DNA of 64,000 nt from Macrophomina tecta (Eukaryota > Ascomycota > Dothideomycetes > Botryosphaeriales > Botryosphaeriaceae). The translations under genes were made by a program, and so were the position numbers. The stretch covers positions 124,001 through 188,000 of the forward strand of contig JAKSGN010000003.1 of assembly GCA_024180945.1 (NCBI GenBank). The letters run 5' to 3'. This document shows, piece after piece, positions 16,794 through 63,570 of this stretch. The notes under the pieces were generated by a model. The model saw only the letters and a list, made by a program, of their open reading frames with translations, searched no databases and was not told the DNA's origin. How positions within the stretch are numbered: position 1 is the stretch's first letter; each line of letters begins with the position of its first letter.

Positions 16794-17536
16794 GGCGAGC
16801 GGGCTGGAGGCACGCCAGACGCGAGGCGGAGAATGGTGGTAGAGGCCCACTAAGGACGCGTTGAGGGGGGAGGCGGAAGGGGGGCGCGAGAGAGAGAGAG
16901 AGAGAAAGCGAAATGACGCAAGGAATTTGCGAGGTCACAAGGCAAGCGAGGATGCAGTCGTGATTGGAGGCGGCACAGGTTGCGGTGTGGCCGCGTCGGC
17001 GGGCACGAAGTCGGCGCAGCTTCCGACTCGTTCCGCTGCCCGGCTTACTGTCCGTACAGGCCTGTTCGGTTCTCCAACGTGCATGTCCTCCACAGCGCAA
17101 TATGCGTGCTCCTTTCAGCCAGTTGCGCTCGGCTTTCGACGACGCAGAGTTCGTTGTGGATACCCCAGCATCTCGCGTGGCCGGCCAGGGTGTTTCTCCC
17201 AGCCCCGTGCACTGTGAGTGTAATTGTCTTTGTTAGCCGGCATTGGCTGGGCTCCAAGACCCCAAAAAGGCTAGCATGCAGTTATTATAGAAGCACCATG
17301 TGGTTGCGACAGACGCCTAAATAGGTGGTGCTAGTACCAGAACCACTTGCACCTTTCGTCTGCAGTATTACTCAGTCTTTCCCAGTGAGAAAAGACAGCA
17401 AATATGGCTCGTCACGCCGAGAGGCCCGCTATATCTCGATATAAATCAGCACTAGCCACATTTCACGAACCGCTACCCTGCAACCTTGCCCCTACGGCCA
17501 TACCTTCATTTCCTCCCGCCTTCGGACATCTCCGAA
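16794..17536. promoter_or_regulatory. Bidirectional promoter, ABCC transporter / dioxygenase
   Basis: This 743 bp separates divergent start codons. It holds a (GA)n tract at 16888-16905 and a bZIP-type half-site TGACGCAA at 16914-16921, 121 bp upstream of the transporter ATG. Shared control of pump and tailoring enzyme is plausible. The sites were read by eye only. Confidence 0.5.
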
Positions 17537-29355: not shown

Positions 29356-30232
29356 ATGCATCTCATCCTGACAGGCGCCACGGGGCTGATTGGCTCCATC
29401 GTGCTCGCCATTATGCTCGATGACCCCGCCGTCGAGAGGATTTCCATCATCAGCCGCAAGCCAGTGCCGCAGGCTGAGGGACACGCGAAGGCGGAGGTCA
29501 TCATCCAGGAGGATTTGGCCAAATACGACCTCGCAACGCTGGAAAAGCTGAAGGGCGCGCATGGCTGCGTCTGGGCCCTCGGGCCGCCGCTGATGTCCGT
29601 GACGAGAGAGTGAGTTGCAATGCCGGTTGCCGATACCACAGGGCGGGGAGATGCTGAAGGCACGGCAGCCAGTACGAATACGCCCACATCGAGCTGCCCG
29701 CCATCGCAGCAAAGACGTACTCGACGCTGAGCGACCAGTTCAACTTCGTCTACGTCTCCCGTATGTTGCACGCGCGCCCCGGGTTGAGCTTGAGTTGGCT
29801 GACAGTTGCGCCCCAGACGACGGCATTGACGAGCCGGGCAGCCGCCGGATGGCTGCGTACGACGTCAAGTTCCGGGCCGAGGAGAAGTTGCTGAAGCTGA
29901 GCGAGGAGACGTCGTCGCTCCGCTTCTTCTCGGTGCGGCCGGCGCTGATCGACTACTCGTACCACACGGCCGTCCACCCGTACATCAAGTACCCGCTGCC
30001 GCTGCCCAAGAAGATTTCCAACTGGTTCTTGATCCCCGTCTTCAGGTTCTTCGGGTCAGTGAACGTGACGCGCTCCGAGCATCTCGGTACCGTCTTGACC
30101 GAGCTGGCGTACGGCGACGGTGCTGATCTCACCGTCGAGGGCGCGTCGCACGGCGGCCGCTACATTGGCGTGGTGGGCATGGCCAACTACATGAAAGACA
30201 AGCGGGCGAAAGAAGGGGTGGGGGCCCAGTGA
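29356..30232 (+). CDS. NmrA/atypical-SDR Rossmann-fold protein
   Basis: Exons: 29356-29609, 29669-29760, 29817-30232; 253 aa. Introns of 59 and 56 bp (GTGAGT...GCAG, GTATGT...CCAG) are phase-consistent. The N-terminus MHLILTGATGLIGSIVLAIM carries the GxTGxxG dinucleotide-binding motif, followed by SRKPVP (NADP-type basic residue) and CVWALGPP. FNFVYVSHDG and KFRAEEKLLKL occupy the positions of the catalytic Tyr and Lys strands, but a clear YxxxK is not evident; YDVKFRAE is the nearest candidate. Fungal homologues are usually annotated as nucleoside-diphosphate-sugar epimerase or HTATIP2-like proteins. It lies 0.9 kb upstream of the NRPS on the same strand. A redox step on the product is possible, and so is a sensor role. 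Confidence 0.8.
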
Positions 30233-31164: not shown

Positions 31165-32540
31165 ATGGCACACCCTCTGCTCGTCCGGATGGAGCAGCAG
31201 CTTTCGGCGGACCCCGCTGTTGGACAGGCCAAGGTCCTGAACCTGGCCTCGAGCGCCGCGGAGGCGCAATCCGTTGTCGTGCTCTCCCTGCGGCATTCTC
31301 ACGACGGCCCTGCTCCGGACCCCTCAATCGTGAAGGAAATCCGCAGGAATTTGATCAAGGGTTTGGAAAACGACGGCGGCAAAGGAATCGTCCCGAAACG
31401 ATGGGTTCTGCTGGACGATCTGCCCGTGACCAGCGCGGGCCTTGTTGACGCGGACGCCCTGCGCCTGCGGCTGAGTGACATGCAGGCCGAAGCCCAGGAA
31501 AACGCACTTGCATCGCCGATGGAGAGGAAGCTGCGCCAAGTTGTTGCTGATGTTTTGCGCCTGCCGCTGGCTGAAGTCCGGCTGTCCACGTCCTTCATCC
31601 GGCTCGGAGGCGACTCGATCACCGCCATCGAAGTCATGGCGCGATTCCTGGCTGATGGCATCGTCATGAACGTTCCCGAACTCATGACCTGCGACACCCT
31701 CGCCGAACTGGCTTCCTTGGTGGTTCCCGCAGCCGACTCTGTCGAGTCCACCCAATCTTCGATTGACGCCTCGGATACCTTCGCCTTGAAGCCCGAGACG
31801 TTGGCGTACTGGAACGCGCCGCAAGACTGGTATGCTGACGACGTCGGGGCATCGAGCGGCTTCGAAATCTCCGAAGAGGATGCCCATTTGCTTCTTGGAG
31901 GCCTCGAGACCATTCTGAAGATGACTCCGGCCGAAGTTTGTCTCGCCGCTATCTTGCACTCGTTCCAGAGCATATTCACCGATCGCGAAGTGCCTCCTGT
32001 CATTGCCATCGGGCCGGACCCTCAAGCACCAGCCCAACCGTTGAAAGTTCCCGTCGAGTTGGCGCTCGTGCGCGAGGATGATTTCAAGCAGGCTCTGCGT
32101 CGCACAAAAGATGCTGTTCGCGGAGCCGCCGCCTCCCTGGGAGGATCTCCAGTGGCCAGCCCCTCGTTCGTTGAGCTTGTCGTTGACTACGTCGATGAAC
32201 GCCGGCCGGGCACGCCTCCCATTTCCGTTGGCAACGGCCATGTCAACGGCAAGGCCAATGGAAATAGCCACATGGGCGGTAGAAAGAGATCACGCGAGAC
32301 CAGGGCACTTTTTGAAATCACCATCAGAGTGGACATGCGCAACCACGTGACGCTCGAATTTGACCATCCGCGGAACCTTCAGCGCCGCGAGGACGTCATG
32401 AACTGGGTGGACCGCTGCCAGGAGCTGCTGCAGGGCGGCCTTTCCTCTCTGGCATCCTCGGCTCCCATCCACTCCCTGGCCGATTTCGCGCTCTTATCGC
32501 TCGACACCTACGAGGAACTAGACGACTTCACCGAGAACAA
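31165..32540 (+). other. NRPS N-terminal region: decayed A-T-E module
   Basis: Residues 1-105 look like the tail of an A domain, ending in LPVTSAGLVDADALR at the place of the LPxTxSGKxDRxxL (A10) motif. The carrier domain T0 is complete (FIRLGGDSITAIEVM, Ser151). Residues about 205-460 resemble the second half of an epimerization domain: LAYWNAPQDW, a helix like the LLAAllhSF stretch (VCLAAILHSFQSIFTDR), ALRRTKDAVRG at the vKdxxRxxP place, and the closing SLADFALLSLD. The first half, with HHxxxDG, is missing, and EGHGRE is replaced by IAIGPDP. T0 may now serve as an acyl-loading carrier. Confidence 0.75.
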
Positions 32541-35500
32541 GCTGGCAGCGCTGGATGGCGCGGCAATCGAAAGCGCCTACCCGTGCTCGCCGGTCCAGGA
32601 AGGCATCCTCCTCGCTCGGATCCGATTTCCGGAGAGCTACCGCATCGAGCGCGTGTTCGAGGTGGAAAGCCACGGCTCAGCGAAGGTGGATTTGGAGAGG
32701 CTCGAGGACGCCTGGCGGACCGTAGTCAGCCGCCACGCAGCTCTGCGGACCGTCTTCGTTACGAGCTCGCGCGAGGGCGCCATGTTTGACCAGATCGTGC
32801 TCCGAAGCATCGAGCCAGAGATCGCGCGGATAGGCCCCTTCAGAAACGGCACGGCCGCCACTCCGGTGCTGAACGCACTGGAACCTGCCGAGTTCGAGGA
32901 TGCTCTGCCCGCCCATCGCTTGACGGCATGCAGGACGGCGGATGGCCGCGTTTTCTGCAAGCTGGAGATCAGCCACGCCTTGGTGGACGGCATGTCCGCA
33001 GGCGTCATCTTCAGGGAACTCAGACTCGAGTACAGCGGGCTGCTTCCACCGCGGCCCGCCCCCTTGTTCAGCGACTATATCTCCTACCTGCAACGACACG
33101 CGAAGAAGCCCGCGCTGCAGTACTGGGCCGACTATCTCCAGGACGTCACCCCCTGCCACTTCCCGGCCATAGTAGACCATGTCTCGGAGCCGGTAGAGCT
33201 CAAGTCTGTTTCCATTGCCATAGGTTCGATGCAGAATCTCCATGGGTTCTGCAAGGCGCAAGGCGTCACGTTTGCAACGCTCATGCAGGCGGTGTGGGGG
33301 ACCATCCTCCGTGCCTACACTCAGTCCGACGACGTTTGCTTTGGTTTCCTCTCCTCTGGCCGCAACGCACCACTCGCAAACCTGCAATCCATGATTGGCT
33401 GCCTGATCCATATGCTGGTCTGCCGCATAGACTTTGGCGGCTTCGCCAGCTTCAACAGTTTGCTCCAAGACCTGCAAAAAACGCTTGGCCGCAGTTTAGT
33501 CAACCAACACAGCTCCCTCGCCGAGATCCAGAATGCCCTGGGTCTGGACGGGCTGCCGCTGTTCAACACGCTCATGTCCATTGACTACACGGCTATGGGC
33601 GAGGCGGACGGCGATTCCGCCATCAGCTTCAAGCAGATGGTCAACTACGCCTCCACTGAAGTAAGTCGCCAAATCCGCGTGCAATCCCGTGCTATATTAA
33701 CCACTTTCCCCCAGTACGATATTACACTCACCATCGACTCCACGGCCAAGGGGCTGGCCTTCCAGCTGGCATATCAGACGTCAGTTTTGTCCGAGGCGCA
33801 GGCCAACAGCCTGGCAAGCTCCTTCACCAAGGTCCTTGATTTCATTACGAGCAGCCCCGACGCCGCTCCTTCAGCTGCCGAGGTCATCGGCGACAAGGAC
33901 CTCGCCCAGCTGGCAGCCGAGTGCCGCATCCCCGGGCGAGAGCAGTCGTGCGTGCACTGGCTAGTCGAGGAGCACATCAAGACCAGCCCAGACGCGCCTG
34001 CCATTGCGTCGTGGGATCGCGACCTCACGTACGCGCAGCTGGGCGCCCACGCCTCGCGGCTGGCGTTGCGGCTGCAGGGCCTCGGCGTCGGTCCCGAGGT
34101 GCTGGTGCCAATCTGCTTCCCCAAGTCCACCTGGGCTGTGGTCTCCATGGTCGCAGTGCTCCAGGCGGGCGGCGCGTTTGTGCCGCTGGACCCCAGCGCG
34201 CCTGCGGCGCGGCTGCAGAGCGTCCTCGACGACACGAAAGCCACGCTCGTCCTGGCGGCGCCGGCCACCGCCGAGAGGCTCCAGGAGTTTGCTGTCACAG
34301 TCCTCTGCGTTGACGAGGACATCCTCGCCGCGCTGCCCGCCCCGACGGAGCCCGTGACGTCGTCGGTGCAGCCCCACAACGCCAGCTTTGTTATCTTCAC
34401 GTCTGGCAGCACGGGCAGGCCAAAGGGCATGATCATGGAGCACAGCGGCACGGCCACGGTGGCGGAGGCATACCCCAAGGCGCTCTCGATCGGCCCGGGC
34501 ACGCGGGTGCTGCAGTTCTCGGCCTACACGTTCGACATGGGCGTGCTGGACCCGTTGATGACGCTGGCGCGCGGCGGCACGTTGTGCATTCTGTCGGACA
34601 CGCAGCGTGTCAACGATCTCGCCGGCGCCATCAATGCCCTCGGCGCCACCTGGGCCTTCCTGACGCCCACCGTCGCCGACATGCTGGACCCGCGCAGCGT
34701 GCCGTGCCTCGAGATGCTCGTGCTGGGCGGCGAGGCCATTCCCCCGCGCACCGTCGACCGCTGGAAGGACTCGGTGGCGCTGCACGGCGGGTACGGCCCC
34801 GCTGAAGCCTCCGTCTGCGCCTGGAACCCGGCGCTGGGTAAGTCTGGCCAGAAGACTACTAACATAGGAAACCCCCTCTACAGCGCTTTTTGGGTCGTCG
34901 ACCCCGCTGACTTTAGGCGCCTCGTGCCGCTGGGCTGCGTCGGCGAGCTGTTGATTGAAGGGCCCATGCTCGCACGCGGCTACCTCAACGTCGACGCCAA
35001 GGCCGCCGCCAACTGGCTAGAAGACGTGGACTGGCTCCCCGGGGGAGGCAAGAGGAGGGTGTACCGCTCGGGAGACTTGGTAAGGCGAAACGCGGACGGT
35101 ACTTATGACTTTGTAGGTCGCAGGGACACGCAAGTGAAGCTGCACGGCCAGCGCGTCGAGCTCTCTGAAATCGAATCCCGGGCCCACGAGGCACTCCCGG
35201 ACACGGCGGCGTCCCTGGTCGAGGTGCTCAAGGCAGACGGCCAGGCGGACGCCCTCACCCTTTTCCTCTGGTTCACCGGCGGACCGCACTTCCAGCCCGG
35301 CCCAGCGCGCTTCGCCGATACCCTGTCGCCGGATCTGCGCGCACTGATATCGGATCTGGACACGTCGCTGACGAAGGTTCTGCCGTCGTACATGGTGCCG
35401 TCGTTGTACCTCGTCGTGCAAGGCAGCCCCGAGCAGACGACGTCCGGCAAGGTGAATCGCCGCGCCCTCGTGCAGATGGGCGCGTCCCTCTCGGCCGAGC

Positions 35501-38500
35501 AGCGGCTGACCTTCTCGCTCGACGCGGCCAAGAGCGGGGAGGTGCCGGCCACACCCATGGAGAAGTTGCTGCAGGGGCTGTGGGCCGAAGTACTGCGGAT
35601 TGATGCGAGGCTGATTGGCCGCATCAACAGCTTTTTCCGGCTGGGCGGCGACTCGATTGCTGCTATGAAGCTCGTCACGGCGGCCATGCAGAAGGGCATG
35701 CGCCTAGACGTAGCCACCATCTTCAGAGCCCAGACTCTGGCGGAAATGGCTGCCCGCGCGGTCGTGGATGACCCAGAGCAGCTGCAAGTCCTGGAGGCCT
35801 TCTCTTTGCTCCCAGACGGGGTCGACGTCGACAGCCTGCGGGAAGAGGTTTCTCAGTTGTGCGGTGTTGATGCGCTCAGCATCTCCGACGTGCTCCCGTG
35901 CACTCCGCTGCAGGTCGGCTTGATGGCCCTTTCGTACAAGCAGCCCAAGGCATACACCGGCCGCATCGCGTACCTGCTGCCTGCGACTGTGGACGTGGAA
36001 AGATTCAAGTCTGCCTGGGCCACCGTGCTCCGCACTCACGCCATGCTGCGGACTCGGCTGGTCGACACCAAGGCTGCCGGTATCGTGCAGGTTGTTCTCG
36101 ACGGCGAGGAAATCGAGTGGAAGTCCACGACCGACGTGGACGTGTACATGCAGCAGGACGCCGAGATCCCCATGGCCATCGGCGGCCGTCTTTCACGATA
36201 TGCCATCGCCGAAGAGAGCGACGGCCGGCGGTTCTTCGTCTGGACCGCCCACCATGCCCTGTACGATGGCCACTGTCTGCCGTTGATCCTGCAGCAGGTC
36301 GAGGAAGCCTACCGCGACCACCAACTGGAAGCGCCCACCCCCTTCGCCGAGTTCATCCGCTACACCCAGAGCCAGGAAACGCCGGAAGCAGAGGACTTTT
36401 GGCGCAGCCAGCTGGCCGGATCCAGCAGGACCAACTTCCCGGCGCCGCCCCCTGCGGACAAGCTTCGCGTGGACGGCGAGGTCATTCACAAAATCCAAGT
36501 GGCTGCGCAAGCACGCCCTGGAATCACGCTCTCCACGCTGCTCCGCGCTGCCTGGGGCATCGTGCTGGCCAAGCACGCCAACACCGACGACCTGATCTAC
36601 GGAATCACAGTCAGCGGCCGCAGCGCAAACGTCCGTTGTGTCGACCAGATGGTCGGCCCCACCATCGCCACCCTGCCGTTGCGCGTCCGCTTGGCCCCGC
36701 GGCAAAGCATCGCGGAGTTCTTGAGCAGCCTGCAGAGCCAGGGCACCGACATGATTCCCTACGAGCAGTTTGGCCTCCAAAACATTGCCCGGCTGGGCGC
36801 CGGCGCGGAGAACGTATCCTCGATCCAGAGCCTCCTCGTGGTGCAGCCGGCAGGACAAGACACCGAACGCCCGCTCGGATTGACGATGGAAAAGGTCCAC
36901 GGCGCCGGATTCCACACCTACCCGCTCATCATCGAGTGCCGCTTTGCCGGCAACGCCGTCGAGGTGCACGCGCTGCACGACGTGAACGTCGTGCCCGCGC
37001 CGCTGATGCAGGCTATCTGCGCTCAGTTCCAGAGCGTCATGGAGCAGCTCACCGGCGGGGCTGTCCAGCGGCTCGCCGACATCGACATGCTGACGGCGGC
37101 CGACATGCTCCGCATCCAGGAGTGGAACAGCCAGATGCCCGAGGTGGTGACTGCCTGCGCCCACGACCTCATCCACCAGCGCGCAGTCGCGCACCCAGAC
37201 GACATGGCCATCGTTGCGTGGAACGGCGACTTCACCTACCGGGAGATGGACCGCGCGGTCACGAAGCTGGCGAGCCACCTCGTCGAACTCGGGGTGGGTC
37301 CTGAGACTTTTGTGCCGTGTTGCTTCGAAAAGTCGGCTTGGTACGTCGTTGCGCAGCTAGCCGTCATGGTGGCCGGCGGCGCGTTCGTGCCGCTGGAGCC
37401 GTCGCACCCGACGAACCGCCTTCTCGACATCATCGAGCAGCTGGACGCCCGGGTCATGATAACAACGCCCTCGACTGCAGCAAAGTTTGCCCCTGGGACT
37501 GTCTCCAGCGTGGTCGAGCTGTCAGAAGCATACGTCTCATCGCTGCCGGAGCCTGCCGGGCCGTTGGTCGGAAGAGCGGAGCCCAACAACGCTGCGTACT
37601 GCCTGTTCACTTCGGGCAGTACGGGCAAACCGAAGGGTGTTGTGATCGACCACGAGACGCTCTGCTCCAGCGCCGCCGGCCACGGCAGAGCCCTGGGCGT
37701 GTCCAAAGAGACGCGGGCGCTGCAGTTTTCCACGCACGTTTTCGACGCCAGCATCGTCGAAATCCTCACCACACTCATAGCCGGCGGCTGCGTCTGCGTG
37801 CCGTCGGAGGAGGCCCGAATGAACAATGTCGCGGCGGCCATCAACGAGATGCAGGCCAACTGGGCCCTGTTCACGCCATCATTCTCGCGCCTGGTGCGCG
37901 CCGAAGACGCGGCGTCTCTGAAGACGCTGGTGCTCGGCGGAGAGGCGGTCAAGCCGGAGAACATCGCACAGTGGCTGGGCAAGGTCCGGCTGATCAACTC
38001 GTATGGTCCGACCGAATGCACAGTCACTACCGTCGCGCGCGAGATCACTTCTGCGGACGCGCCTCCCGCCACCATCGGCCGGCCGGTCAGCTGCAAGTGC
38101 TGGATCGTCGACCCGGCGGACGAGTCTCGGCTCAGCCCGGTGGGTTGCGTGGGCGAACTCTTCGCTCAAGGCCCGCTGCTCGCCCGTGGCTACCTGCACG
38201 ACCCGCAAAAGACGGCTGCCGCCTTCATCGAAAACCCAGCCTTCCTCACCGACCGTGTCGATAGCTCCGGCCTGCGCCGGCGCGTGTATCGCACGGGCGA
38301 TCTGGTGCGCTACCTGCCAGACGGCAGCATCGAGTACATGGGCCGCAAGGAGAACTCGCAGGTCAAGCTCAACGGGCAGCGCATGGAGCTTGGCGAGATC
38401 GAGCACCACGTGCAGGAGAACATGCAAGGCGCCAAGCAGGTTGTCGTCGACATCGTCAAGCATTGCCAGGGCGCCCAGCGGGCTCAGCTCGCCGCCTTCC

Positions 38501-41500
38501 TCTACTTCGGCGGCGACGAGCCCAGCAAGAGCGCAGATGGGGACGACGAGTCGTGGCTGATGCCCATGGACGCCGAGCTGGAAACGGCCATCGCAGACCT
38601 CATGAGCACGCTCGCCATCGCGCTGCCGCAGTACATGGTTCCCAGCCTCTACATCCCGCTGCGCCGGCTTCCCCTCGCCGTCTCGGGCAAGAGTGACCGC
38701 AAGAAACTGGTCGAGATCGCCGAGAACATGTCTGCTGCCCAGGTGGCCAGCTACTCGTTGGCCGGCTCGGAAAAGCGCATGCCGACCACGGAGATGGAGC
38801 TCGAGCTCCGCGGGCTCTGGTCTGCAGTGCTGGGCATTGACGAAGAATCAATCGGCGCCGACGACAGCTTCCTGCGGCTGGGTGGCGACTCGATCGCGGC
38901 CATGCGTCTCGTGTCCGCCGCGCGCCAGAGAGGCCTCACCCTGACCGTCGCTAGGGTCTTCAAAGATCCGCGCCTCTCTCAACTCGCGCTTGGAACCGTC
39001 CGCGAGGACCAGAACGTGCAGGTGCTGGAGCCGTTTTCGCTGCTCCCGAGCGACCTCTCCCGCGACCAGCTTGCCGAGGCGGTGCGCGCCCAGTGCAGCG
39101 TCGATTTCTCCAAGGTCCAGGATGCGTACCCCTGCACCGCGCTGCAGGAAGGCCTCATGGCCATCTCGATTAAGCAGGCCGGAGCGTACATCGCCCGGAA
39201 TGTGCTGAAGGTGCCCGCCTCCATTGATATCAACCGGCTGCGCAAGGCGTTCCAGGCGGTCGTCCTGGCCCGCGAGATTCTCCGCACGCGCATCGTTCAC
39301 TTCGCCCACCGCGCGTCCGTGCAGGTCGTGCTCGAGGACGACGTCCACTGGGAGACGGTGGGCGAGCTGCAGGCCTACCTGGCCCAGGACCAGCGCGCAC
39401 TCATGACGTACGGGGCACCGCTGATCCGCTTCGCCGTCGCCAGCGACGAGACGCATGGAAGATGCCTCGTGCTGACGCTGCACCACGCGCTGTACGACGG
39501 CTTCTGCCTGCCGCTCATCATGCAGGACGTGCAAAAGGCCTACGACGGCCAGGCCCTCACCAAGCTGCTCCCCTTTTCCACCTTCGTCAAGTACCTCGAC
39601 GAGGCCAACGGCGACGGATCGGACGCGTACTGGACCGCCCAGACGGCCGGCGCCAAGCTCACCCCCTTCCCCCGCCTCCCGAGCAAGCAATCGCCGAAGC
39701 GCGCGGATGCCGCGCTGCACCTGCGCGTCCCTTGCAGCCGCGCTGCCGGGTCCGACGTCACCATGCCGACCATCCTGCGTGCCGCGTGGGCCGTCGTGCT
39801 GGCGCGGTACACGGACTCGGAGGACGTCACCTTCGGGTCGACGCTGTCCGGCAGGAATGCGCCGCTGGGCGGTATCGACGCCATGATCGGCCCGGTCATC
39901 GCAACGGTGCCGGTTCGCGTGCGCGTCGAACCCGCGAAGTCGAAGCTGGAGTACCTGGAGGAGGTGCAGCAGCAGGCGGCCGACATGATCGCGTACGAGC
40001 AAAAGGGCCTGCAGAACATTGCGCAGCTGAGCGCCGACGCGCGCGAGGCCACCAACTTCCGCACGCTCATGGTAATCCAGAAGGGAGTTGCGCGGGCGGA
40101 TCTGCTGGGCATGGCGAATGTGACCGAGGCCATGAACGACGGCTTCTACTCGTACCCCTTCATCCTCGAGTGTACGCCCTTCGACGACGCGGTGGACGTC
40201 GATGCGCGCTTCGACGCCAATGTCATTTCTCCCGCGCAGGTCGAGATGGCCTTGCACCAATTCGGCCACGTTGTGAAGCAGCTGGCCAGCTCCACCGACT
40301 GCTTCCTCGCCGACGTCGACATGTGCAGCCCGCACGACCTCGAACGCATCTACGCTCTCAATACCGCTCTTCCGCAGGCCACGCCCGACCTGGTGCACAG
40401 CTTGATTGCCCAGCGCGTCCAGAGCCGCCCGACCGCCGAGGCCGTGTGCGCGTGGGATGGCTCCTTCACCTACGCCGAGCTCGACAGGCTGTCGGACGCC
40501 CTCGCCGCGCATCTTCAATCCCTTGGCGTCGGCCCTGAGTCGTTGGTGCCGTTCTGCATGGACAAGTCCAAGTGGGTGCTCGTGGCGATGCTCGGCATCA
40601 TGAAGGCCGGCGGCGCCTTCGTGCCGTTGGATCCCGGCCACCCCTTTGCACGGCGCCAGACTATTTGTAAACTCACTGGTGCTGAAATCATGATTGTTGC
40701 ACCCTCGACGCGCGACATCAGCGAGGGCTTGGTTGGGACGGTCGTCGAGCTGACGCCAGACTCGGTCGCCTTGATGCCTGCCACGCTCGCTGCGCCATCT
40801 GATGTCCAGCCTGACAACACCGTATATGTCCTCTTCACGTCCGGCTCGACAGGCGTGCCCAAGGGCGTGGTCATGGAGCACCGGGCCGTGACAACCGCCG
40901 CCCCGCTGTTTGGCGCGTCGATGAACCTGAACCAGGACTCGCGCGTGCTGCAGTTCAGCAGCTACGTCATGGACATTAGCGTCATGGAGACCATCGTCGC
41001 CCTTTCCCAGGGCGCCTGCGTCTGCGTGCCCAGCGAGCACGACCGCATGAACGACCTCGCGGGCGCCGTCAATGCCATGAAAGCAAACTGGACGCTGCTC
41101 ACGCCCTCGGTCGGCCGCCTGCTGACGCCCGACCTGGTGCCGTGCATGCGCACCATGACGTTTGGCGGCGAGCCCGTGGGCAAGGACAACGTCGAGACGT
41201 GGTTCGGACGGACCAATCTGATTCTGGTGTACGGCCCCTGCGAGACCACCATCGTCTGCTCCACCTACACCGTCCAGGACGTCGCCGACTCGCCAACCAT
41301 CATCGGCTCCACCGTCGGCTCGCTCTTCTGGGTCGCCGATCCCGCCGACCACGACAAGCTTGTGCCCTTTGGCTGCGTGGGCGAGCTGTTGGTCCAGGGA
41401 CCCCTCATGGCCCGCCACTACCTCGGGGATCCCGAGAGGACGGCGGCGTCCTTCGTCGACGCGCCGCGCTGGCTGCCCGAGCAGCCTGCGGGCTTTGGGC

Positions 41501-50500: not shown

Positions 50501-53500
50501 CGATGATAGCGGTGATGAAGGCCGGTGCGGGATTCGTGCCGCTCGACCCAACTCATCCTATCGAACGTCGCGTCGAGATTATCGAAGAGGTTGGCGCGAA
50601 GGTCATTCTAGCTTCGCCCGGTGCTGCTCCTGCGTTTGATGGGTTGGTCGGAGATGCAAAGGTGGTTGTTGTATCGCCTTCCCTTATGGAGTTGCTTGCG
50701 GCAGAGCCTCGTGCGCAGATTCAAGCGGTCACTCCCGTTCAACCGACCGACGTTGCCTACGCCTATTTTACCTCTGGCAGCACTGGCAAGCCCAAGGGAG
50801 TGGTCATGGAGCACAGGTCCATCTGCTCCGGCCTGGCAGCGCAAGCCCCGGCCGTCCGCATCACTTCCTCCACCCGCGCCCTCAACTTCTCAGCCTTCGT
50901 CTTCGACGCCTGCCTTCTCGAGATCTTCGGCACCCTCACCCAAGGTGGCTGCCTGGTGGTGCCGTCGGACAGCATCCGCATGAACGGGCTTGCCCAGTTT
51001 ATGAACGACACTAAGACCAACTTCGCCATCTTCACGCCCACCTTCGCCACCACGATGAGGCCCGAGGACGTGCCCGGCCTGCGCGTGCTGGTGCTCGGTG
51101 GCGAGGCGGTGCGCAAGGAAAACCTCGACACCTGGCTGCCCGCCGTCGAGGTCATCAACGCATACGGCCCGACCGAGTCCTGCATCGCCGTCGTCTTCCA
51201 TAGCTTCACCGCGCCCGACCAGGCCACTATTATCGGGCGCGCCGAGGGTGCCGTCGCGTGGATTGCCGACCCCGACGACTACAACCGGCTTGCGCCCGTC
51301 GGCTGCGCGGGCGAGCTTCTGATCCAGGGCCCGTCGCTCGCGCGCGAGTACCTCAATGACAAGGCAAAGACGGACGGCGCGTTCGTCGAGCCGGCCTGGC
51401 TGAAGAAGAACCGCTCCAAGCTGCCGCCTCGTGTTTACAGGACGGGCGATTTGGTCAGGTACACGGCAGAGGGCACGATTGAGTACATGGGCCGCCGCGA
51501 CTCTCAGATCAAGCTGCGCGGCCAGCGCCTCGAGCCCGGGGAGATTGAGTACCAGGTCAAGAGAAGTCTGGGCGGCGATAACGTGCAGGTGTCGGTCAAC
51601 CTTCTCAAGGGCGCGACTGCTGCGAGCGCCGCAAACCTGGCAGCCTTCATCTGCTTCGATCCCTCCGCTGCAACCACTAGCGGGGACGACGGCTTGCTCC
51701 TGCCCATGGATGAAGCTGCCGTTGAGAAGATCCAGGAGCTCGTACGCACCCTCGCCAAGGTGCTGCCTGAGTACATGGTGCCGACCATGTTCTTCCCCGT
51801 ACGCCAGATGCCCATGGCGACGTCGGGGAAGACGGACGCGCGCCGCCTCAAGCGTGCCGCCCTGGCCCTGACGCACGAGCAGCTCAAGCAGTACCTGCTG
51901 TCCTCTGTCGGCGATGGTGCCAAGCGCCCGCCGCAGACGGGTATGGAGATCAAACTCCAGGGGCTGTGGGCCGCAACCATTGGCATCCCCCTGGAGGAGA
52001 TTGGGCTTGACGACAGCTTCCTCCAAGTCGGCGGCGACTCGGTGTCGGCTATCCGGCTGGTCACCAACGCCCGAGCCGAGGGCGTCCAGTCGCTCACCGT
52101 TGCTACCATTTTCTCGAACCCGCGGCTTGAGGACATGGCACGCGAGTGCGAGGCGCTGCAGGCTTCCGAGGAGGAAGAGGAAGAAGCCATTGCTGCTCAG
52201 GCTGTGGAGAGGAAGAGGCCGTTTGGCCTGCTTCCCGACGACATCTCCCCGGATCGCGTCAGGGAGGCTGTCACGGAGCAGTGCGGCATCGCGTCTCCGG
52301 CTCTTTCGATCGAGGACGCCTACCAATCCACGGCGCTGCAGGAGGGCATGATTACTCTGACGGAGAAGGAAGCAGGCACATACGTTGCCCAGAACGTCTT
52401 CCGCCTCGGCGCTGCGGCGGACGTGGGTCGGTTCAAGAGCGCATGGGAGTCTGTGGTTGCAGCAGTCAAGATCCTGCGCACCCGGCTCTTGTCCATCAAC
52501 GAGCGGTGCATGCAGGTCGTCCTCAACGAAGACTTCACGTGGCACACGGCAGCCACTCTCGAAGAGTACCTCGCCCACGAAAAAGCCCTATCCATGCATT
52601 ACGGCAGCCCACTCTCCCGCTACGGCCTGATCACCGAAGGCGGCGAGACCTTCTTTGTCTGGTCCATCCACCACGCCGTGTACGACGGCTGGAGCATGGC
52701 CCTGATCAAGGACGCGCTCATGGGCGCATACTACCACGGCGTACCTCCATCGGACGGCGCTGCTCCCTACGCTGACTTCGTCGCGTATACGCTGAGCATC
52801 CCGCGCGATGAGACGGAGGAGTATTGGCGCTCGGAGCTCGCGGACTGCAAGAAGACCAACTTCCCGCGCCTGACCAACCTGGCCAAGAAGCCGCGCACCG
52901 ACGAGGCCATCCGCCGCTCCATCGCTCTCCCGGCAAAGCAGCTGGGCAGGGGAATCACCAAGGCGTCGCTCATGAGGGCCGCCTGGGCGATCGTTGTGGC
53001 GCGCAATGCCGGCGTGGATGATGTGGTCTTTGGCACCACGGTTTCCGGACGCAATGCGCCGGTGGCAGGAATCGAAGGCATCATTGGGCCGGCCATCGCC
53101 ACGATGCCCGTCCGCGTGCGTCTCGGCGACGGCTCGATGCCCGCGTCTCACTTCCTCAAGGCCGTGCAGGCCCAATCCAACCAGCTCATTCCCTACGAGC
53201 AGTTCGGCCTGCAGAACATCTCCAAGCTCAGCAGCGATGCGCGCGAGGCGTGCGACTTCCAGACGCTGCTGGCCATCCACCCCCCGCAGACGACGGCGAC
53301 ATCGGACGAGGCCGAGCCGTTCCTGCACCAGCTGAACCAGGACGACAGCGCCGAGAAGACGTTCTTCACGTACGCGCTGGTCTTCCAGTGCCACTTATCC
53401 GAGGGCGACGAGATGCAGGTGACGGCCACGTACGACTCGTCGATCCTACAGAGTTCGCAGATCGACAGGCTGGTCTCGCAGTTCAGTCACGTTGCCAACC

Positions 53501-56500
53501 AGCTGATCGAGGCGTCTTCGCGCCCCGTCGCCAGCCTTGACCTTGTCAGCCCGCATGAGCTGCAGCAGCTGCGGGCCTGGAACAGCGAGGATGAGCCGGA
53601 AATTGTCGAGTCCTGCGTGCACCACCTGGTGCAGCGCCAAGCGGCTCTGCGCCCCGAGGCACCGGCAATTCGTGCCTGGGACGGCGTCTTCACGTACGGC
53701 GCACTCGACGCCGCCGCGAACCGCTTGGCCCACCATCTGGTCAGCGACGTCGGCGTCCAAGTGGACCAGCTCGTGCCCGTGTGCTTTGAAAAGTCGGCCT
53801 GGTTCTTTGTGGCCATATTGGCCATCTGCAAGGCTGGCGGCGCCTGGGTTCCGCTGGATCCTTCGCACCCTGAAAGCCGCCAGCGCCAGGTGGTACAGCA
53901 GACGCGCGCCAGGCTCGCCCTCGCATCACCCGCGAACTTTGACCGCTGCAGTAGCCTGGTGGAGACGGTCGTCCAAGTGTCCCCGGCTCTCGACGAGCAG
54001 CTGGCAGCCACCAATCCAGATGCCAGCTCGCACCCGCCGGCGTGCGACGTCTCCCCGCGCAACGCTGCTTACGTTCTCTTCACCTCCGGCAGCACTGGTG
54101 CGCCGAAGGGCATTGTTATGGAGCACGCCTCGGTGTGCACGAGCCAGACGGCCATCAGCAAGCGGCTCGGCCTTACGCCCGAAGTCCGGATTCTCCAGTT
54201 CGCCTCCTATGTCTTTGATTTCTGCATCGGAGAGATTGTTGCGTCTTTAATCTCGGGCGCCTGTGTTTGCGTCCCATCCGAGTACATGCGCATCAACGGG
54301 CTTAAGCAGTTCGTGCGCGATATGGACATCAACTGGCTGTTCCTCACGCCTGCCTTTACGCGCACCCTGAAGCCCGAAGACGTGCCTGGGGTGGAGCTTC
54401 TCCTGCTGGGCGGCGAAGCGGTCGGTCAGGACATCCTCGACACCTGGTTTGGCAAGGTACGCCTCATCAACGGCTGGGGCCCTACCGAAACCTGCGTCGT
54501 CAGCACACTGCACGAGTGGGCTTCGCCCACCGAGTCGCCGCTCACCATCGGCCGCCCGGTTGGCGGGAAGGTCTGGATCGTCGAGCCCGACAATCCCCAG
54601 CGCCTGGTCCCCGCTGGATGCATTGGCGAGGTCGTTATACAGGGCCCCACGATGCTGCGCGAATACCTGTCCGACCCGGAGCGCACCGCGGCGGCGACGG
54701 TGACGGCGCTGCCCGAGTGGGCGCCGAAGCGCACCTCGCGGGGCTGGGATAGGTTCTACAAGTCTGGTGACCTGTGCTTCTATAACGCCGATGGGACCAT
54801 CGAGTTCGTGAGCCGCAAAGACACCCAAGTCAAGATTCGTGGTTTGCGCGTTGAACTGGGCGACGTCGAGCATCACGTTCGCGCCACGCTCGAGGGCGTC
54901 AAGCAGGTCGTTGTGGACGTCTTCGAGACGGGCGCGGGCTCCACCCTCATCGCCTTTTTCTGTCTCTCGACCAACACGCGCGCCCAAGAAGACGTCAACG
55001 ACGCCGCCGTGTTCCTACCGCTAACGGAAGAACTAGAGAGTAAGGTTACGGCCGCGGTTGGACAGCTGAACGTCACCCTGCCGCGGTACATGATCCCAAC
55101 CGTCTTTGTCCCGACGCGGTACATGCCCTTGGTCACTTCGTCAAAGCTCGACCGCAACAGGCTCCGCAGCCTGGCCGCCGCCCTGCCCACCCAGGAACTT
55201 GCCATGTACTCGCTCGCGCAGACCAAGAAGCGCGAGCCCGCCACCGACATGGAAGCGCGCTTGCAGAAGATCTGGGCGGATATTCTGCATGTCTCTCCTG
55301 ACACTATTGGGCGGGACGACAGTTTCCTGCAGCTGGGCGGCGACTCGATTGCGGCCATTCAGCTGGTCACGCTGGCACGCGACCACGGCATCTCCCTGGC
55401 CGTTTCCGACATCTTCGACGACCCGCGTCTGACGGCCGTCGCCCGGGCAGCGAGCCTGGTTGATCAAGACGAGGCGCTGCCACACGAACTGGAGCCATGG
55501 GGTATGCTCGCACATATGGACCTCGAGGCTGTTCAGAGCCATATCTGGGACCAATGCAACCTCTCAAGCGATCAGGTCATTCAGGACGCGTATCCGTGCA
55601 CCAAGCTCCAAGAAGGAATGATGGCCCTCGCGGTCAAGCAGCCGGGCTCGCACATCGCCAACTACGTGTACGAAATACCGGCACATGTGGACGTGGCCCG
55701 TTTCCAGCGCGCTTGGGAGGAGACGGTTCGTCTCTGTGACAACCTCCGCACCCGAATTGTGCTCTTCAACGGCGTCTCTATCCAAGCCGTGCTCCAGGAC
55801 GACATCTGCTGGCAGCCCGCTGGCGGCAAGACCATTCACGCGTACATGGAGAGCGAGCAAAAGGCACAGATGCAGTACGGCTCGGCTCTGTGTCGGTATG
55901 CCCTGGTGCAGGACCCGCGCGACGGCGCCAACTATTTTGTGTGGACGATGCACCACGCGGTGTACGACGGCTGGAGCATGCGCCTCATGCTCGAGCGGCT
56001 CCAGCGCATATACCAAGACACTGACGTGCCGGCCGTCGTCCCGTATGCGGGCTTCATCAACTATACGGCAAACCTCGACATCGACGCCGCCAGCGCCTTC
56101 TGGAAGGACCAGCTGTGCGCAGCCAAGCGTGCGGCGTTCCCGCGCATGCAGAAGAGTCAAACCAGCACCAGCGCTTCACTCAGCCGCGACATCGTCTTCC
56201 CGCGTAACACCGGCTCGTCAGTCACCAAAGCCACGATCCTGAGGGCCGCCTGGTCGCTCGTGCTCGCCCGCTACAGCGACAGCGACGATGTGTGCTTCGG
56301 CGCCAGCATCTCCGGACGGCAGGCCGCCGTCCCAGGCATCGAGAACATGGCCGGGCCCGTCATCGCCACCATTCCCGTGCGCGTGCGCCTTGACCGCCGC
56401 ACACCCGTATCCAAGTTTTTGGAAGACATCCAGGCGCAGGCGTCCGACATGGTGCCACACGAGCAGCTCGGTTTGCAGAACATCGCCAAGCTGGGGCCGG

Positions 56501-59500
56501 ACGCCAGGGAGGCCTGCGACTTCTCGAGTCTGCTGGTGATCCAACCGGCACAGGTCCTCGAGCTCGATGGCGCTAGGGAGGGAAGCATACTGATCCCGAG
56601 CACCGACGCTGCCTTTGCGCCCGAGACAGCAAACTACTTCACCTACCCGCTCGTGGTGCAGGGCCACATCTCCGACGAGCGCGTCGGCCTGCACCTCGTC
56701 TACGACCCTGCGGTGCTGTCCGAAGGGCAGCTCGAGGCACTGGCGCACCAGTTCGAGCACGTCGTCCGGCAGCTGCTCCTCGCCTCCCAGGCCCTCAACG
56801 ACAATGAGAAGACGATTGCGGACGTCAGCCTTGCCGGCCCCTTCGATCTGCAGCGCGCGGCCTCCTTCAACGGCCCCGTCGTGCCAGTCCAGCATACAAC
56901 CTTCCACGCCCTCGTCGACAAGCAGGCACGCGAGCGGCCGCACGCCCCCGCCATCCACGCGTGGGATGGCGAATTCACGTACGCGCAGTTGGCCTCCGCG
57001 TCGGACCGGCTGGCGCGCCACCTGCTCGCCACCACCGACATCAGGCCCGACTACCTGGTGCCCATCTGCTTCGAGAAGACGGCCTGGACGTACGTCGCCA
57101 TGCTCGCCGTCAACAAGGCCGGCGGCGCGTGGGTTCCGCTCGACCCGAGCCACCCGGACGCCAGACGGCGCGAGATTCTGGAGCAGACGGGGGCCAGCTT
57201 CATGCTGGCGGGCGAAGCTGCTTCTGCCAAGTGCGGCGGCCTCGGTGCGAAAAGGATTGTTGTGGTGGGGAAGGCGCTGGATGCAGAGCTGTCCGAGCAG
57301 CAAGCCGCATCAGCCGGCCCTCTCCCCTCGACCGCAGGCCCGCAGCACGCCGTGTACGTGCTCTTCACGTCGGGCAGCACCGGCAAGCCCAAGGGCATCG
57401 TCATGGAGCATCGCAACGCGTGCACCAGCCAGCTCGAGATGGCGCGCTGGCTGGGCTTGTCGGCGGGGGTGCGTATGCTGCAGTTCGCATCGCACGTGTT
57501 CGACATGTCGATTGGCGAAATCATTGGCCCGCTCATTTCGGGCGCCTGTCTGTGCGTGCCGTCGGAGCGTGACCGCATGAACGACGTGCCCGGCTTCATC
57601 GAGCGGGCCAAAGTCAACTGGGTGTTTTTCACCCCGTCGTTCGTACGCCTGCTAAGCCCTCACGATATCCCGAGCGTCACGACGGTGCTAGTCGCGGGCG
57701 AGGCGGTCGGCTACGACAATTTGGAGAAGTGGGTTGGCAAGGTGCGGTTCGTGAATGGATGGGGCCCGTCTGAGACGTGCGTCTGCAGCTCCCTGCACGA
57801 GTGGACGCAGGTCGAGGGCAGCTCGCCACTGACGGTGGGCAAGCCGCTGGCGTGCAACTTGTGGGTGGTGGAGCCGGACGACCACAAGCGCCTCGCGCCC
57901 GTCGGGTGCGCGGGTGAGATTTACGTCCAGGGCCCCACGATCTCCAGGGAGTATTTCATGGACGACGAGAAGACGAAGGCGACGTACATTGACGACATTC
58001 CGGATTGGGCGCCCAGGCTGGGGGCTGGCGAGGATGCGCACAGCAGCCGCTTCTACAAGACCGGAGACCTGGGCTACTGGAATCCGGACGGCACGCTGGA
58101 GTTCGTCGGCCGCATCGACACGCAGGTGAAGATCAGGGGGTTCCGCATCGAGCTGGGCGAAATCGAGCACAATATCAGGAAGAGCCTGGCCGGTGTGGAG
58201 CAGGTGGGCGTCGACGTCGTCAAGACGGACGACGGCAGCAACCCGACCCTGGTGGCTTATCTCTGCTTCTCTGAGGAGAGCCGCACCGCGGCCGACGATA
58301 TATCGGACATCTTTGCCCCGGCAGACGAGCCGCTGAAGGCGGCGCTCGCCTCTCTCGTCGACGACCTCAAAGCAGCTTTGCCCCCGTACATGGTCCCGAC
58401 TCTCTTTTTACCGCTCAGTTACATGCCGTTCATCACCTCGACCAAGCTGGACAGGAACAGGCTCTCCGCGCTCGTGGCCGGCATGTCGCGTGACGAGCTG
58501 GCCGCCTTCTCGCTAGACAACCAAGAGAAGGTCGCGCCGACCACGGCGATGGAGGTGCAGCTGCGCGATCTTTGGGCCCAGGTGCTCAAGGTGGCTCCCG
58601 AATCGATTGGCAGAAACGACAGCTTCCTTCAAATCGGAGGTGACTCCATCACCGCCATCCAGTTGGTGACGGTGGCCCGCAATCAGGGCGTCGGCCTCAG
58701 CGTCGCCCAAATCTTTGCAGACCCTCGGCTTGGCCGTATGGCTGCCGTGGCGCAGAACGAGCTGACTGCCGAATCAACTTTTGAAACCGAGCCCTTCGGC
58801 CTTCTTCCGGCGGACACGCGCGACGTTGTGGTGGCCGAAGCAGCCAAGCAGTGCCGCGTCGACGCGGGCAAAATCCTCGACGCTTTCCCCTGCACACCGC
58901 TCCAAGAAGGCCTCATCGCGCTGGCGGAGAAGCAGCCTGGCTCATACATGGCGCGCTTCGTCATGCAGATTCCCCGCGGACTGGACATGGCGCGCTTCAA
59001 GGCCGCCCTGGAGACCACGACATCAGTCTGCACAAACCTGCGTACGCGCATCGTTCTCTCCTCCGGCCAAGGGCCCCGGCAAGTTATCCTCGACGAAGAC
59101 GTCGCTTGGCGGGAGCAATCCGAAGAGTCGTTGGGCCAGTTCCTCAAGAAGCCGGCCCTCACCATGGGGTACGGCACGCCGCTCTCGCTCTTCACGCTCG
59201 TCCGCGACCAGATCTGCACCCACTTCGTGTGGGACATACACCACTCTATGTACGACGGCTGGGCCCTCTCGCGCATGGTCGAAGTCCTCCAGCGCGCTTA
59301 CTACCAGGAAGACCTGCCTACGCCCATCCCCTACGCCAACTACGTCAACTACACACTGGCCTCGGGTGAAGACGAGGCCCGCGCCTTCTGGACCGCCCAG
59401 CTCGACGGCGCGCACATGGCCAAGTTTCCCAAGGCCCCCGCCGACCTGCCAGACGTCCGCTCTGACCGGACGATGAGCCAGTGGATGGCGGTCCCGGAGG

Positions 59501-62500
59501 CCCGCAACGCCGGCGACGTCACCACGCCGACCCTCCTACGGGCGGCCTACGCCTTCGTCCTCGCCAAGTACCTCGAGAGCAATGACGTTGTATTCGGCAG
59601 CACGGTCTCAGGCCGCAACGCCCCGGTGCCCGGCATTGACAGGATCCTGGGCCTGACTATCGGCACGATCCCCGTGCGTGTGCGCATCGACCGCACGCAG
59701 ACGGCGGCGCAGTACCTGGCTGCCGTGCAGCGCCAGTCTAACGACATGATACCCTTCGAGCACACCGGCCTGCAGGTCATCTCGCACTTCGGCGAGGGGT
59801 GCCGCGCGGCGTGCGACTTCCACAACCTACTCATCATCCAGCCCGGCTTCTCCAACGACTTTTCGCGCGACATGGGGCTCAAGCTGGTCGACATGACGGC
59901 CGAGAACGAAAACTACCACGTCTACCCGCTCGTCTTCCAGTGCTCGCTGGAAGACAAGGGCCAGATCCGCCTGCACGCCACCTACGACTCGCGCGTGCTG
60001 TCGGAGGCGCAGATACAGGCCATGATGAACCAGTTCGAACATGTTGTCGGCCAGCTGGCCGGCGGCGGCGACGCGGTGCGCCTGGCCGACGTCAGCCTGT
60101 GCGGCCCGCGCGACATCGAGCAGATCTGGGACTGGAACACGCAGGAACTGCCCGAGACGACCAGCGCCTGCGCGCACGACCTCATCGCGCTCCACGCGGC
60201 CTGCGCCCCCAAGCGCGAGGCCATCTGCTCGTGGGAGGGCAGCATCACGTACGCCGACCTGGACCAGCTGTCGTCGCAGCTGGCCAACCACTTGTTCCAG
60301 CTCGGCGTGCGGCCCGAGACGCCCGTGCCCATCTGCTTTGAGAAGTCCATGTGGACCATCGTGGCCATGCTGGGCATCATGAAGGCGGGCGGCGCCTTCG
60401 TCCCGCTCGACCCCTCGCACCCGACGGCCCGCAGGCAGGAGATTGTCAAGGAGACGAAGGCGCAGTTCATGATCGTCTCGCCTTCTGCCGCAGCGGGCTG
60501 CGCCGGCATGGCGGAACACGTGCTCCCGCTGTCGGCGTCGCTGATGGCCTGGTTCCCCAAGACAGCGAACCACGGCATGAAGCAGCGCTCGAAGCCCGCG
60601 CCTTCCAACGCCGCATACACCATCTTCACTTCCGGAAGCACTGGCAAGCCAAAGGGCGTCACGGTCGAGCACGCGGCTCTCTGCTCAAGTATCATGGGCC
60701 ATGGTCGAGCTTATGGCCTGAGCCCCTCATCCCGCGTGCTCCAGTTCTCCAACTACGTCTTCGACGTCAGCCTGGGCGAGATCTTCTCGACGCTCGTCTT
60801 CGGTGGCTGCGTGTGCGTGCCCTCGGACGACGCGCGTCTGCGCAACATCGCAGGCTTCATCAACGAGGCCCGAGTCAACACGGCCATGCTGACCCCGTCG
60901 TTCGCCCGCACCTTCGTCCCCGACGAGGTGCCAACGCTCCAGACGCTTATTCTCGGCGGCGAGCCGCTGGCCAAGGACAACCTACTCACCTGGACCGGCC
61001 GCGTGCGCCTCATCAACGGCTACGGCCCTGCCGAGGCCACCATCTACTGCTCGACCTACGTCTTCGACAGCGCTGACGAATCTCCGACAATTATTGGCCG
61101 CGGCGCCAACGCCACGTGCTGGATCGTCGAGCCCGACGACCACCACGCTCTCGCCCCCATCGGCTGCATAGGCGAACTCCTGGTCCAAGGGCCCGCGCTT
61201 GCTCGCGGCTACATGAACGATGTCGACCGCACGCGCGACTCTTTTATCGACGACGTGGCATGGCTGCCGCTGCGCGCAGCCGGCCAGGCGCCCCGTTTCT
61301 ACAAGACGGGCGACCTGGTGCGGTACCGCGTTGCCGATGGAGCCATCGAGTACGTCGGCCGCAAGGACACGCAGGTTAAGCTGCGCGGTCAGCGCATCGA
61401 GCTCGGCGAGATCGAGTTCGGCGTCAAGAACGTCGCGGAGGTCGACGTCGCACAGGTGGTCGTCGACCTGATCAAGTCACAGGGCGGCGAGGCGCTGGTC
61501 GCGTTCGTCAGCTTCGAATCCGTCGCCCAGCAAGAGAGGGATGGCAGAGACAAGAGGGCCAGTATGCACGCGAAGAGGTCGAGCGTCAGCAGCATTGCCA
61601 GCATCAGGAGCACTAGGAGCAACAAGTCAGGCAGCATCCGCAGTGCCGCTGATGTCAGCCCGCTCCTCCCGATGGACGACGAACTGCGAAGCAAGCTCGC
61701 GGGTCTGGCAAACAGCGTCGCCGCGACGCTGCCGGCGCACATGACACCGCAGTACTTCGTCCCAATGCGGCGCATCCCCGAGACTAGCTCCGGCAAGCTG
61801 GACCGCAAGACACTGCGCGAGATGGCGACCAACATGGCTGCCGAGGAGCTTTCTGCCTACGGCATCGGCGGCGGCAGCGCCCCCTCGGCCTTCCGCGCGC
61901 CGGTCACAAAGCTACAGACGGCGGTGCGGAAGCTTTGGGCGCAGGTGCTGAACATGCCCGAGGACAAGATCGGCATCGACGACAATTTCTACCACCTCGG
62001 TGGCGACTCGATCCGCATCATCACGCTAGGCAAGCTCATCCGCAAGGAGTTCGACGTCACCCTCGGACTCGCGCAGCTCAGCAGCAAGAACACGACTGTC
62101 AGCGGCCTCGCTGACTTCGTCCGCCGCGCGCGCTCCGGCTCTGCCCTCCAAGAACAAGAAGAGCCCAAGGTCGACCTCCTGAAGGAACTCAACGCGCTGT
62201 CAATCTCCCCGCTGTCGAAGGAGCTGCTCGCGCACCCAACTAGCACCCTGCCCATGGGGGGTGCTACGGTCCTGCTGACGGGCGCAACCGGCTTCCTAGG
62301 CACGCACATCCTCGAGAAGCTACTACACGACGACCGCGTCGCGCACGTCATCGCGCTGGTCCGCGCGGCGAGCCCGCGCCACGGCCTCGAGCGCGTACGC
62401 AAAACCGCCCACATCGCGGGGTGGTGGAGCGTCGGCGACGCGGCTAAGCTGACGATTTGGGTGGGCGACCTTTCCCACACCAAGCTCGGGCTGAACGACA

Positions 62501-63570: not shown

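Follow-up and report, generated by a model that had tools for sequence, protein, structure and literature searches.

A very large open reading frame (ORF) of the fungus Macrophomina tecta raises the question of what kind of peptide its product assembles, from what starter, and how the finished chain leaves the enzyme. The ORF encodes a nonribosomal peptide synthetase (NRPS) and lies at 31165-63570 on the + strand of the window, by which we mean the whole stretch of 64,000 nucleotides analyzed here (contig JAKSGN010000003.1, positions 124,001 to 188,000; below, contig C3). Coordinates are counted from the first nucleotide of the window unless a contig is given. The frame has 10,801 codons from an ATG start and no internal stop, the nearest in-frame stop upstream beginning 18 nt before the ATG. 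Judged from its sequence, the protein is probably, with real room for doubt, a nine-module fungal lipoaminopeptide/lipopeptaibol synthetase contained in a single polypeptide and related to LcsA of the leucinostatin pathway. Lipoaminopeptides, leucinostatin and emericellipsin among them, are antifungal and cytotoxic. The most unusual parts of the M. tecta protein are its two ends, a decayed loading module followed by an atypical first condensation domain, and an altered terminal reductase domain.

Domain order and module relationships

We parsed the protein into condensation (C), adenylation (A), carrier (T) and reductase (R) domains with hidden Markov models (HMMs) made from its own modules. 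The parse gave T-(C-A-T)x9-R, with C and A matches that span almost the whole model, and Pfam was concordant (AMP-binding, Condensation, PP-binding, NAD_binding_4). This agreement confirms the nine C-A-T modules, leading carrier and terminal R domain in one protein of about 10.8k amino acids that a preliminary description of the locus had proposed; its claim that methyltransferase and thioesterase domains are absent from the synthetase also held (Pfam, E <= 0.001). NCBIfam supplied no more specific name. The parts of the synthetase are as follows.

31165..31497, + strand: C-terminal remnant of an A domain, core missing (Pfam, BLAST)
31498..31728, + strand: T0, an extra N-terminal carrier, residues 112-188, LGGDS intact (HMM parse, Pfam)
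31729..32565, + strand: remnant of an epimerization (E) domain, residues ~190-467, half bearing HHxxxD gone (BLAST)
32566..35766, + strand: module 1 (C1-A1-T1), C1 of the post-E type with SHALVDG, A1 code DMLFVGGVCK, Pro-like
35881..39003, + strand: module 2 (C-A-T), code DAVLVGSVTK
39115..42225, + strand: module 3 (C-A-T), code DIMLTGVIVK
42346..45591, + strand: module 4 (C-A-T), code DMGFFAGVVK, Aib-like (2-aminoisobutyric acid), C motif QHAVYDG
45721..48873, + strand: module 5 (C-A-T), code DAFFIGGVFK
48988..52155, + strand: module 6 (C-A-T)
52309..55458, + strand: module 7 (C-A-T), code DFGFLGGVVK, Aib-like
55579..58758, + strand: module 8 (C-A-T), code DMGFLAGVCK, Aib-like
58873..62127, + strand: module 9 (C-A-T), code DVGMIGGIYK, resembling the last module of P0123 (see below)
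62155..63570, + strand: terminal R domain, residues 10331-10801, with GATGFLG, Tyr10528, Lys10532 and Gly10502
62797..62937, + strand: His/Pro/Ser-rich insert of 47 amino acids in R, after the helix carrying Tyr and Lys (alignment)

The core motifs are well conserved. GGDS is kept in all ten carriers, TSG(S/T)TGxPKG and the pocket lysine in all nine A domains, and HHxxxDG in seven of the nine C domains, the exceptions being C1 and C4. In a six-frame search of the genome, nine Condensation matches fell within the single frame of the synthetase, so that the pattern does not arise by chance. The same search gave a genome total of 75 Condensation-domain matches, five of them between the start of contig C3 and 26 kb, and the genome is NRPS-rich. 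That the locus is decaying and makes no product is very improbable: the A-T-E front has decayed and R is altered, as decay would predict, but the 32.4-kb frame is intact, as are ten carrier serines and nine A core motifs, and the C and A domains are of full length.

We compared the modules with those of other synthetases (no listed protein exceeds 7,993 amino acids, and Tex1 did not appear among them) in a main A tree (64 domains, 11 proteins), in a main C tree (63 domains; its bootstrap did not converge) and, as a wider set, in FastTree trees covering 18 proteins (110 A and 114 C domains). The first six modules correspond to those of two six-module, R-terminated hypothetical proteins, P0011 of Cercophora scortea (Sordariales) and P0045 of Podospora appendiculata. 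A2, A3, A4 and A5 each pair with the same-numbered A domain of both proteins (100/100), and A6 clusters with their A6 plus the second A domain of P0123 (100/100). C2, C3 and C5 pair with the matching C domains at 100/100 and C4 at 100/99; C6 groups with C6 of P0011 and P0045 (98/82) and then with C1 of P0123 (100/99). C1 pairs with the partial C1 of P0011 (100/100; 46% identity over the 329 amino acids left by a shortened gene model), that of P0045 being too partial for comparison. By BLAST, modules 1-6 matched modules 1-6 of these proteins in the same order at 51-60% identity. P0011 and P0045 differ from the M. tecta protein in stopping after module 6, in keeping Ser in the R domain, and in having gene models that begin inside C1.

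The remaining modules point to P0123 of Purpureocillium takamizusanense (Hypocreales, 6524 amino acids), which begins inside an A domain, continues with five more modules and R, and contains modules corresponding to modules 6, 7 and 9 of the synthetase. C7 groups with its C2 (100/99), A9 with its A6 (97/87) and C9 with its C4/C5 (100/98). P0123 is also the closest BLAST match to module 7 (52%), and its last module the closest to module 9 (46%). The wider FastTree set was concordant and grouped A5 with the partial first A domain of P0123 (1.0). P0123 differs in an extra module ahead of the last (code DVAMVVAMFK) and in the Ser of its R domain. Because the 5,348 amino acids by which LcsA exceeds P0123 would hold roughly T0 and four and a half modules, we take P0123 to be the C-terminal portion of an LcsA orthologue.

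According to PMC4946873, LcsA is a protein of 11,872 amino acids with the order PCP-(C-A-PCP)x10-NAD (PCP, peptidyl carrier protein) and Aib at A4, A7 and A8. Its ninth module would be the one for beta-Ala, a position that we deduce by elimination. With that description and P0123 as references, the M. tecta synthetase shares the LcsA-type layout PCP-(C-A-PCP)n-R in one protein, with a leading PCP, a terminal NAD-binding domain, Aib-like modules at 4, 7 and 8 and a Pro-like first A domain. It differs in having nine modules rather than ten, though its last module matches the last of P0123, and in its E remnant, its post-E C1 and the Gly in R. We therefore regard it as a leucinostatin-like lipopeptaibol synthetase and not a leucinostatin synthetase proper, because a tenth module and an aminotransferase were sought and not found. 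Among the papers listed by our literature searches, titles and abstract openings showed none on this architecture. With its first six modules common to six-module synthetases, the protein belongs to a graded set that occurs in nature, with six, nine and ten modules, in which module gain or loss in assembly lines could be studied.

Pocket positions were located through known motifs; DVLFCGLICK is a proline code. A1 falls in the clade of domains with that code (100/100 in the 64-domain tree; 0.68-0.79 in the wider set). The codes of modules 4, 7 and 8 are Aib-like, and by sequence these would be Aib-type A domains at the places where LcsA has Aib; that of module 2, the position of an AHMOD-type residue in the LcsA type, has no reference among the codes compared. 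From the three Aib-like codes, the one Pro-like code and the resemblance of the last module to that of P0123, we predict a product acyl-(Pro)-X-X-Aib-X-X-Aib-Aib followed by a ninth residue in reduced form, the residues at 2, 3, 5, 6 and 9 being those that we infer. The linear acylated nonapeptide of the preliminary description is thereby refined to eight residues and a reduced ninth: its linear, R-terminated layout stands, and the acyl donor is circumstantial.

Several results weigh against the assignment to the LcsA type, and those that concern C1, the R domain and the neighboring genes are given with these parts below. The position of A1 inside its eight-domain clade was not settled in the 64-domain tree and had support of 0.33 in the wider set. 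A7 and A8 fall only in a large clade that holds Aib-like codes (99/94, 64-domain tree); the wider set leaves A8 weak and places A7 nearest to A1 of P0236. Module 8 is nearer by BLAST to module 4 of P0011 and P0045 (46%) than to any module of P0123 (43%), and the grouping of C8 with C3 of P0123 is supported at only 0.88 in the wider set. P0300 of Trichoderma asperellum, the one protein listed under the name lcsA, is no near neighbor of these modules; the broad clades of A1 and of Aib are all that it shares with them. A peptaibol clade with Aib also accepts isovaline, Leu, Ile, Ala, Gly, Val and Ser, as stated in PMC4517408.

The front of the protein and the acyl starter

Assembly on such an enzyme would begin with an acyl chain from a polyketide or fatty acid synthase (FAS), loaded in trans on T0, which lacks an adenylation core. 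C1 would link the chain to Pro (or methylproline) on module 1, modules 2-8 would append seven residues, Aib-type at 4, 7 and 8, and module 9 would append the final one, probably alanine-type. T0 followed by C-A-T modules is also found in the echinocandin/pneumocandin-type proteins P0252 and P0266, which end in a C domain where the M. tecta protein ends in R. The coniotin cluster of Coniochaeta hoffmannii is similar in its polyketide-derived acyl chain, from a highly reducing polyketide synthase (HR-PKS), its acyl-CoA ligase, T0 and C1, its Pro in first position and its Aib-rich product, and differs in comprising three NRPS proteins with 21 modules; T0 loading by way of the acyl-CoA ligase is proposed there (PMC11774467).

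The region before module 1 is a decayed A-T-E loading module that has lost the core of A and the catalytic half of E and has kept T0. Within residues 1-465 Pfam detected the carrier and no AMP-binding match; residues 1-111 resemble the final part of an A domain with the core missing. BLAST with residues 1-188 gave matches, at ~30%, to A-T ends of fungal NRPSs and to two Trichoderma synthetases at their N-termini. Of the 40 top BLAST rows for the E remnant, 33 show an HHxxxD-like motif closely preceding the aligned segment; there the distance from carrier to segment is 171-196 amino acids longer than in the synthetase, from which the loss of the catalytic half follows; the other seven (P0001, P0181, P0010, P0314, P0008, P0022 and P0255) were uncounted, lacking the motif or a usable carrier. 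The earlier statement that the protein has no E domain therefore applies to a full E domain, residues ~190-467 being what is left of one. First exons with a full A0 are an unlikely explanation, as no A domain was found in the three forward frames of 28501-31300 (inspected by eye, with two ORFs checked by Pfam).

C1 itself belongs to the C lineage that follows E domains. Its start lies 320 amino acids from the preceding carrier, compared with 514-556 amino acids, as for a C domain after a full E, in 38 of its 40 best matches (241 and 249 in the other two rows). The motif begins with SH in 55 of the 60 best-scoring C matches, with NH in three and HH in one, one having no match, and the Ser was accordingly dismissed as a sign of decay; the candidates were gathered partly with terms from the same region, which biases the set toward such relatives. 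The origin of C1 is one of the points that tell against the LcsA assignment, since C1 is unlike the type found after T0 in the two related synthetases checked, those of Trichoderma chlorosporum and Paramyrothecium, which have an A remnant and T0 at the start and C1 within 40-41 amino acids. The decayed front suggests a route from an amino acid starter to an acyl starter.

This lineage also bears on whether T0 works at all. T0 might be idle, in which case acyl-CoA itself or an acyl carrier protein (ACP) of a partner enzyme would serve C1 as direct acyl donor. The FAS alpha-type gene at 21155-25636 could encode such a partner, and the expected ACP serine and ketosynthase (KS) cysteine are seen in it by eye. 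We consider this doubtful: although descent of C1 from a post-E lineage would fit it, T0 retains LGGDS and passes Pfam, and the three FAS beta matches of the genome lie on contigs C5 and C35, with none on contig C3.

The terminal reductase domain

In an active assembly line of this kind, R would use NAD(P)H to free the chain as an aldehyde or alcohol, possibly finished by other enzymes. Such release is plausible here but not secure, because of Gly10502 and the 47-amino-acid insert. The canonical Ser/Thr-Tyr-Lys triad is incomplete: the nucleotide-binding motif, Tyr and Lys are kept, and the Ser/Thr position is Gly. Among the 320 proteins compared, 33 relatives with an R domain were found, and all 33 have Ser (32) or Thr (one) at this position; the insert is missing from all ten aligned relatives, P0123 having an insert of 7 amino acids near the same site. 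Both features count against a standard lipopeptaibol synthetase. An intron within R was considered and set aside, since a simple GT-AG pattern yielded no candidate with a length divisible by three. Cyclizing release was also dismissed, there being no terminal C or thioesterase domain in the synthetase.

These data support the preliminary description in part. It held that a different module count, or inactive carriers or R domain, would overturn it; we found nine modules, intact carriers and an R domain whose Gly stands in place of the Ser or Thr of all 33 relatives. For the lipoaminopeptide/peptaibol class it proposed, the leading carrier, the linear R-terminated layout, the module relationships and an HR-PKS and AMP-binding exon upstream speak in favor, and the Gly in R against.

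The same assembly line might instead carry an inactive or changed R domain, with release by hydrolysis or transfer, perhaps with a hotdog thioesterase, to give an acid or amide. The Gly, the insert after the Tyr/Lys helix and an FlK-like thioesterase gene at 68807-69283 (- strand) would agree with this, as would the Ser-Tyr-Lys triad of a peptaibol R domain described in PMC2835699. On the other side, R retains its cofactor motif, Tyr and Lys, and no stop interrupts the frame across it; Tyr is a main proton donor in the model of that study, whose Ser need not be the residue equivalent to 10502; and seven of the 33 relatives have Ser followed by Thr at the equivalent of 10502, so that this Thr may be the working residue instead. 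On balance we hold this reading to be unlikely, if worth keeping in view. For LcsA, an aldehyde or hydroxyl end is expected from its R domain and yet unseen among characterized leucinostatins, according to PMC11193748. A tentative and rather doubtful suggestion is that the protein is a chimera, in which a T0 derived from an A-T-E module hands the acyl chain to a former D-aminoacyl C domain, and an R domain with Gly-Tyr-Lys and an insert releases the product non-canonically (as aldehyde only, by hydrolysis or in trans). The altered R domain offers, ready-made, a way to test the need for Ser in the reductase triad.

Neighboring genes and related loci

If the synthetase is of the lipopeptaibol type, genes for an acyl chain and its activation might be expected nearby. 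The principal neighbors are as follows.

Contig C3 ~102.9-103.4 kb: AMP-binding exon
Contig C3 ~108.4-116.8 kb, - strand: HR-PKS, in pieces KS, AT, DH, MT, ER, KR and ACP
11890..16662, - strand: ABC transporter pieces (ABC_tran, ABC_membrane; TMD0_ABC slightly under cut-off)
17456..18646, + strand: 2-oxoglutarate (2OG)-Fe dioxygenase (PF10014)
21155..25636, + strand: FAS alpha-type gene with ACP, helical domain and KS, N-terminal exon not settled
29356..30229, + strand: small gene like a short-chain dehydrogenase/reductase (SDR), beginning MHLILTGATGLIG, two exons assumed, directly upstream of the NRPS
68807-69283, - strand: FlK-like (hotdog) thioesterase gene

The HR-PKS and the AMP-binding exon, ~38-52 kb upstream of the NRPS start (155.2 kb on contig C3), are candidate members of the pathway by position and domain type, and we consider the acyl donor circumstantial. 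In several domain types the neighborhood resembles the lcs cluster as given in PMC4946873, which has an HR-PKS, AMP-binding protein, ABC1, ABC transporter, metallo-hydrolase, P450 and SDR-like protein, and also lcsP, of the Aminotran_4 type. On the opposite strand upstream lie an ABC1 kinase-like gene and a metallo-hydrolase, which could equally be housekeeping genes; because an ABC1 search found further ABC1 genes elsewhere in the genome, the one near the NRPS may be unconnected to the pathway. Downstream are a 2OG oxygenase and a P450 as well as the thioesterase. An SDR gene adjoins the NRPS on its upstream side in the LcsA type as well; the SDR-like candidate here scored 17.1 bits for Pfam NAD_binding_4, under the cut-off of 20.1, and was otherwise defined by reading frames.

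The remaining points that disfavor the LcsA assignment come from this neighborhood. The 38-52 kb that separate the NRPS from the HR-PKS and AMP-binding exon contain a BED-finger ORF. A motif scan of the surrounding 134 kb detected standard ligase core motifs in the NRPS alone, and not even in the gene of the AMP-binding exon; a genome-wide AMP-binding search, which scored 14 of 159 candidates, was uninformative on absence. No Aminotran_4 match lies on contig C3 (there are eight in the genome), a difference from the LcsA locus.

Lying 5.5 kb ahead of the NRPS, the FAS alpha-type gene has no PPT match. It is unlikely to be a housekeeping gene, because the three PPT-type matches of the genome all lie elsewhere and because it shares 35-50% identity, by aligned piece, with the four other FAS alpha copies. 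Both strands of its region carry long open frames, of which the gene is that on the + strand, and 22001-24000 has a GC content of 72%. We take pathways of the HC-toxin/apicidin type to combine FAS subunits and an aminotransferase in making a 2-amino fatty acid; by analogy, the FAS alpha-type enzyme could help to provide such an acid as one of nine residues, with no N-acyl cap. Its closeness to the NRPS would suit this, as would the two further FAS alpha genes of the genome that lie ~20 kb or less from NRPS and Aminotran_4 matches. The set is not matched here, however, as contig C3 has the FAS alpha-type gene and neither FAS beta nor Aminotran_4, and the layout of the synthetase is linear and R-terminated; we consider this origin of the fatty acid improbable.

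Of the two other loci, contig C35:3062407-3096334 has NRPS, FAS alpha, FAS beta and Aminotran_4 matches together, an apicidin/HC-toxin-like set, and contig C31:720076-754793 has FAS alpha and Aminotran_4 matches ~20 kb or less from an NRPS, with no FAS beta match on C31. The BED-finger ORF (L011:4850-7078), ~34-36 kb upstream of the NRPS, and a hAT dimerization domain (L012:8699-9445), ~9 kb downstream, are possibly transposon remains flanking it. Another PKS, in KS and KR-ACP pieces, lies on the right side at contig C3:214196-222784.
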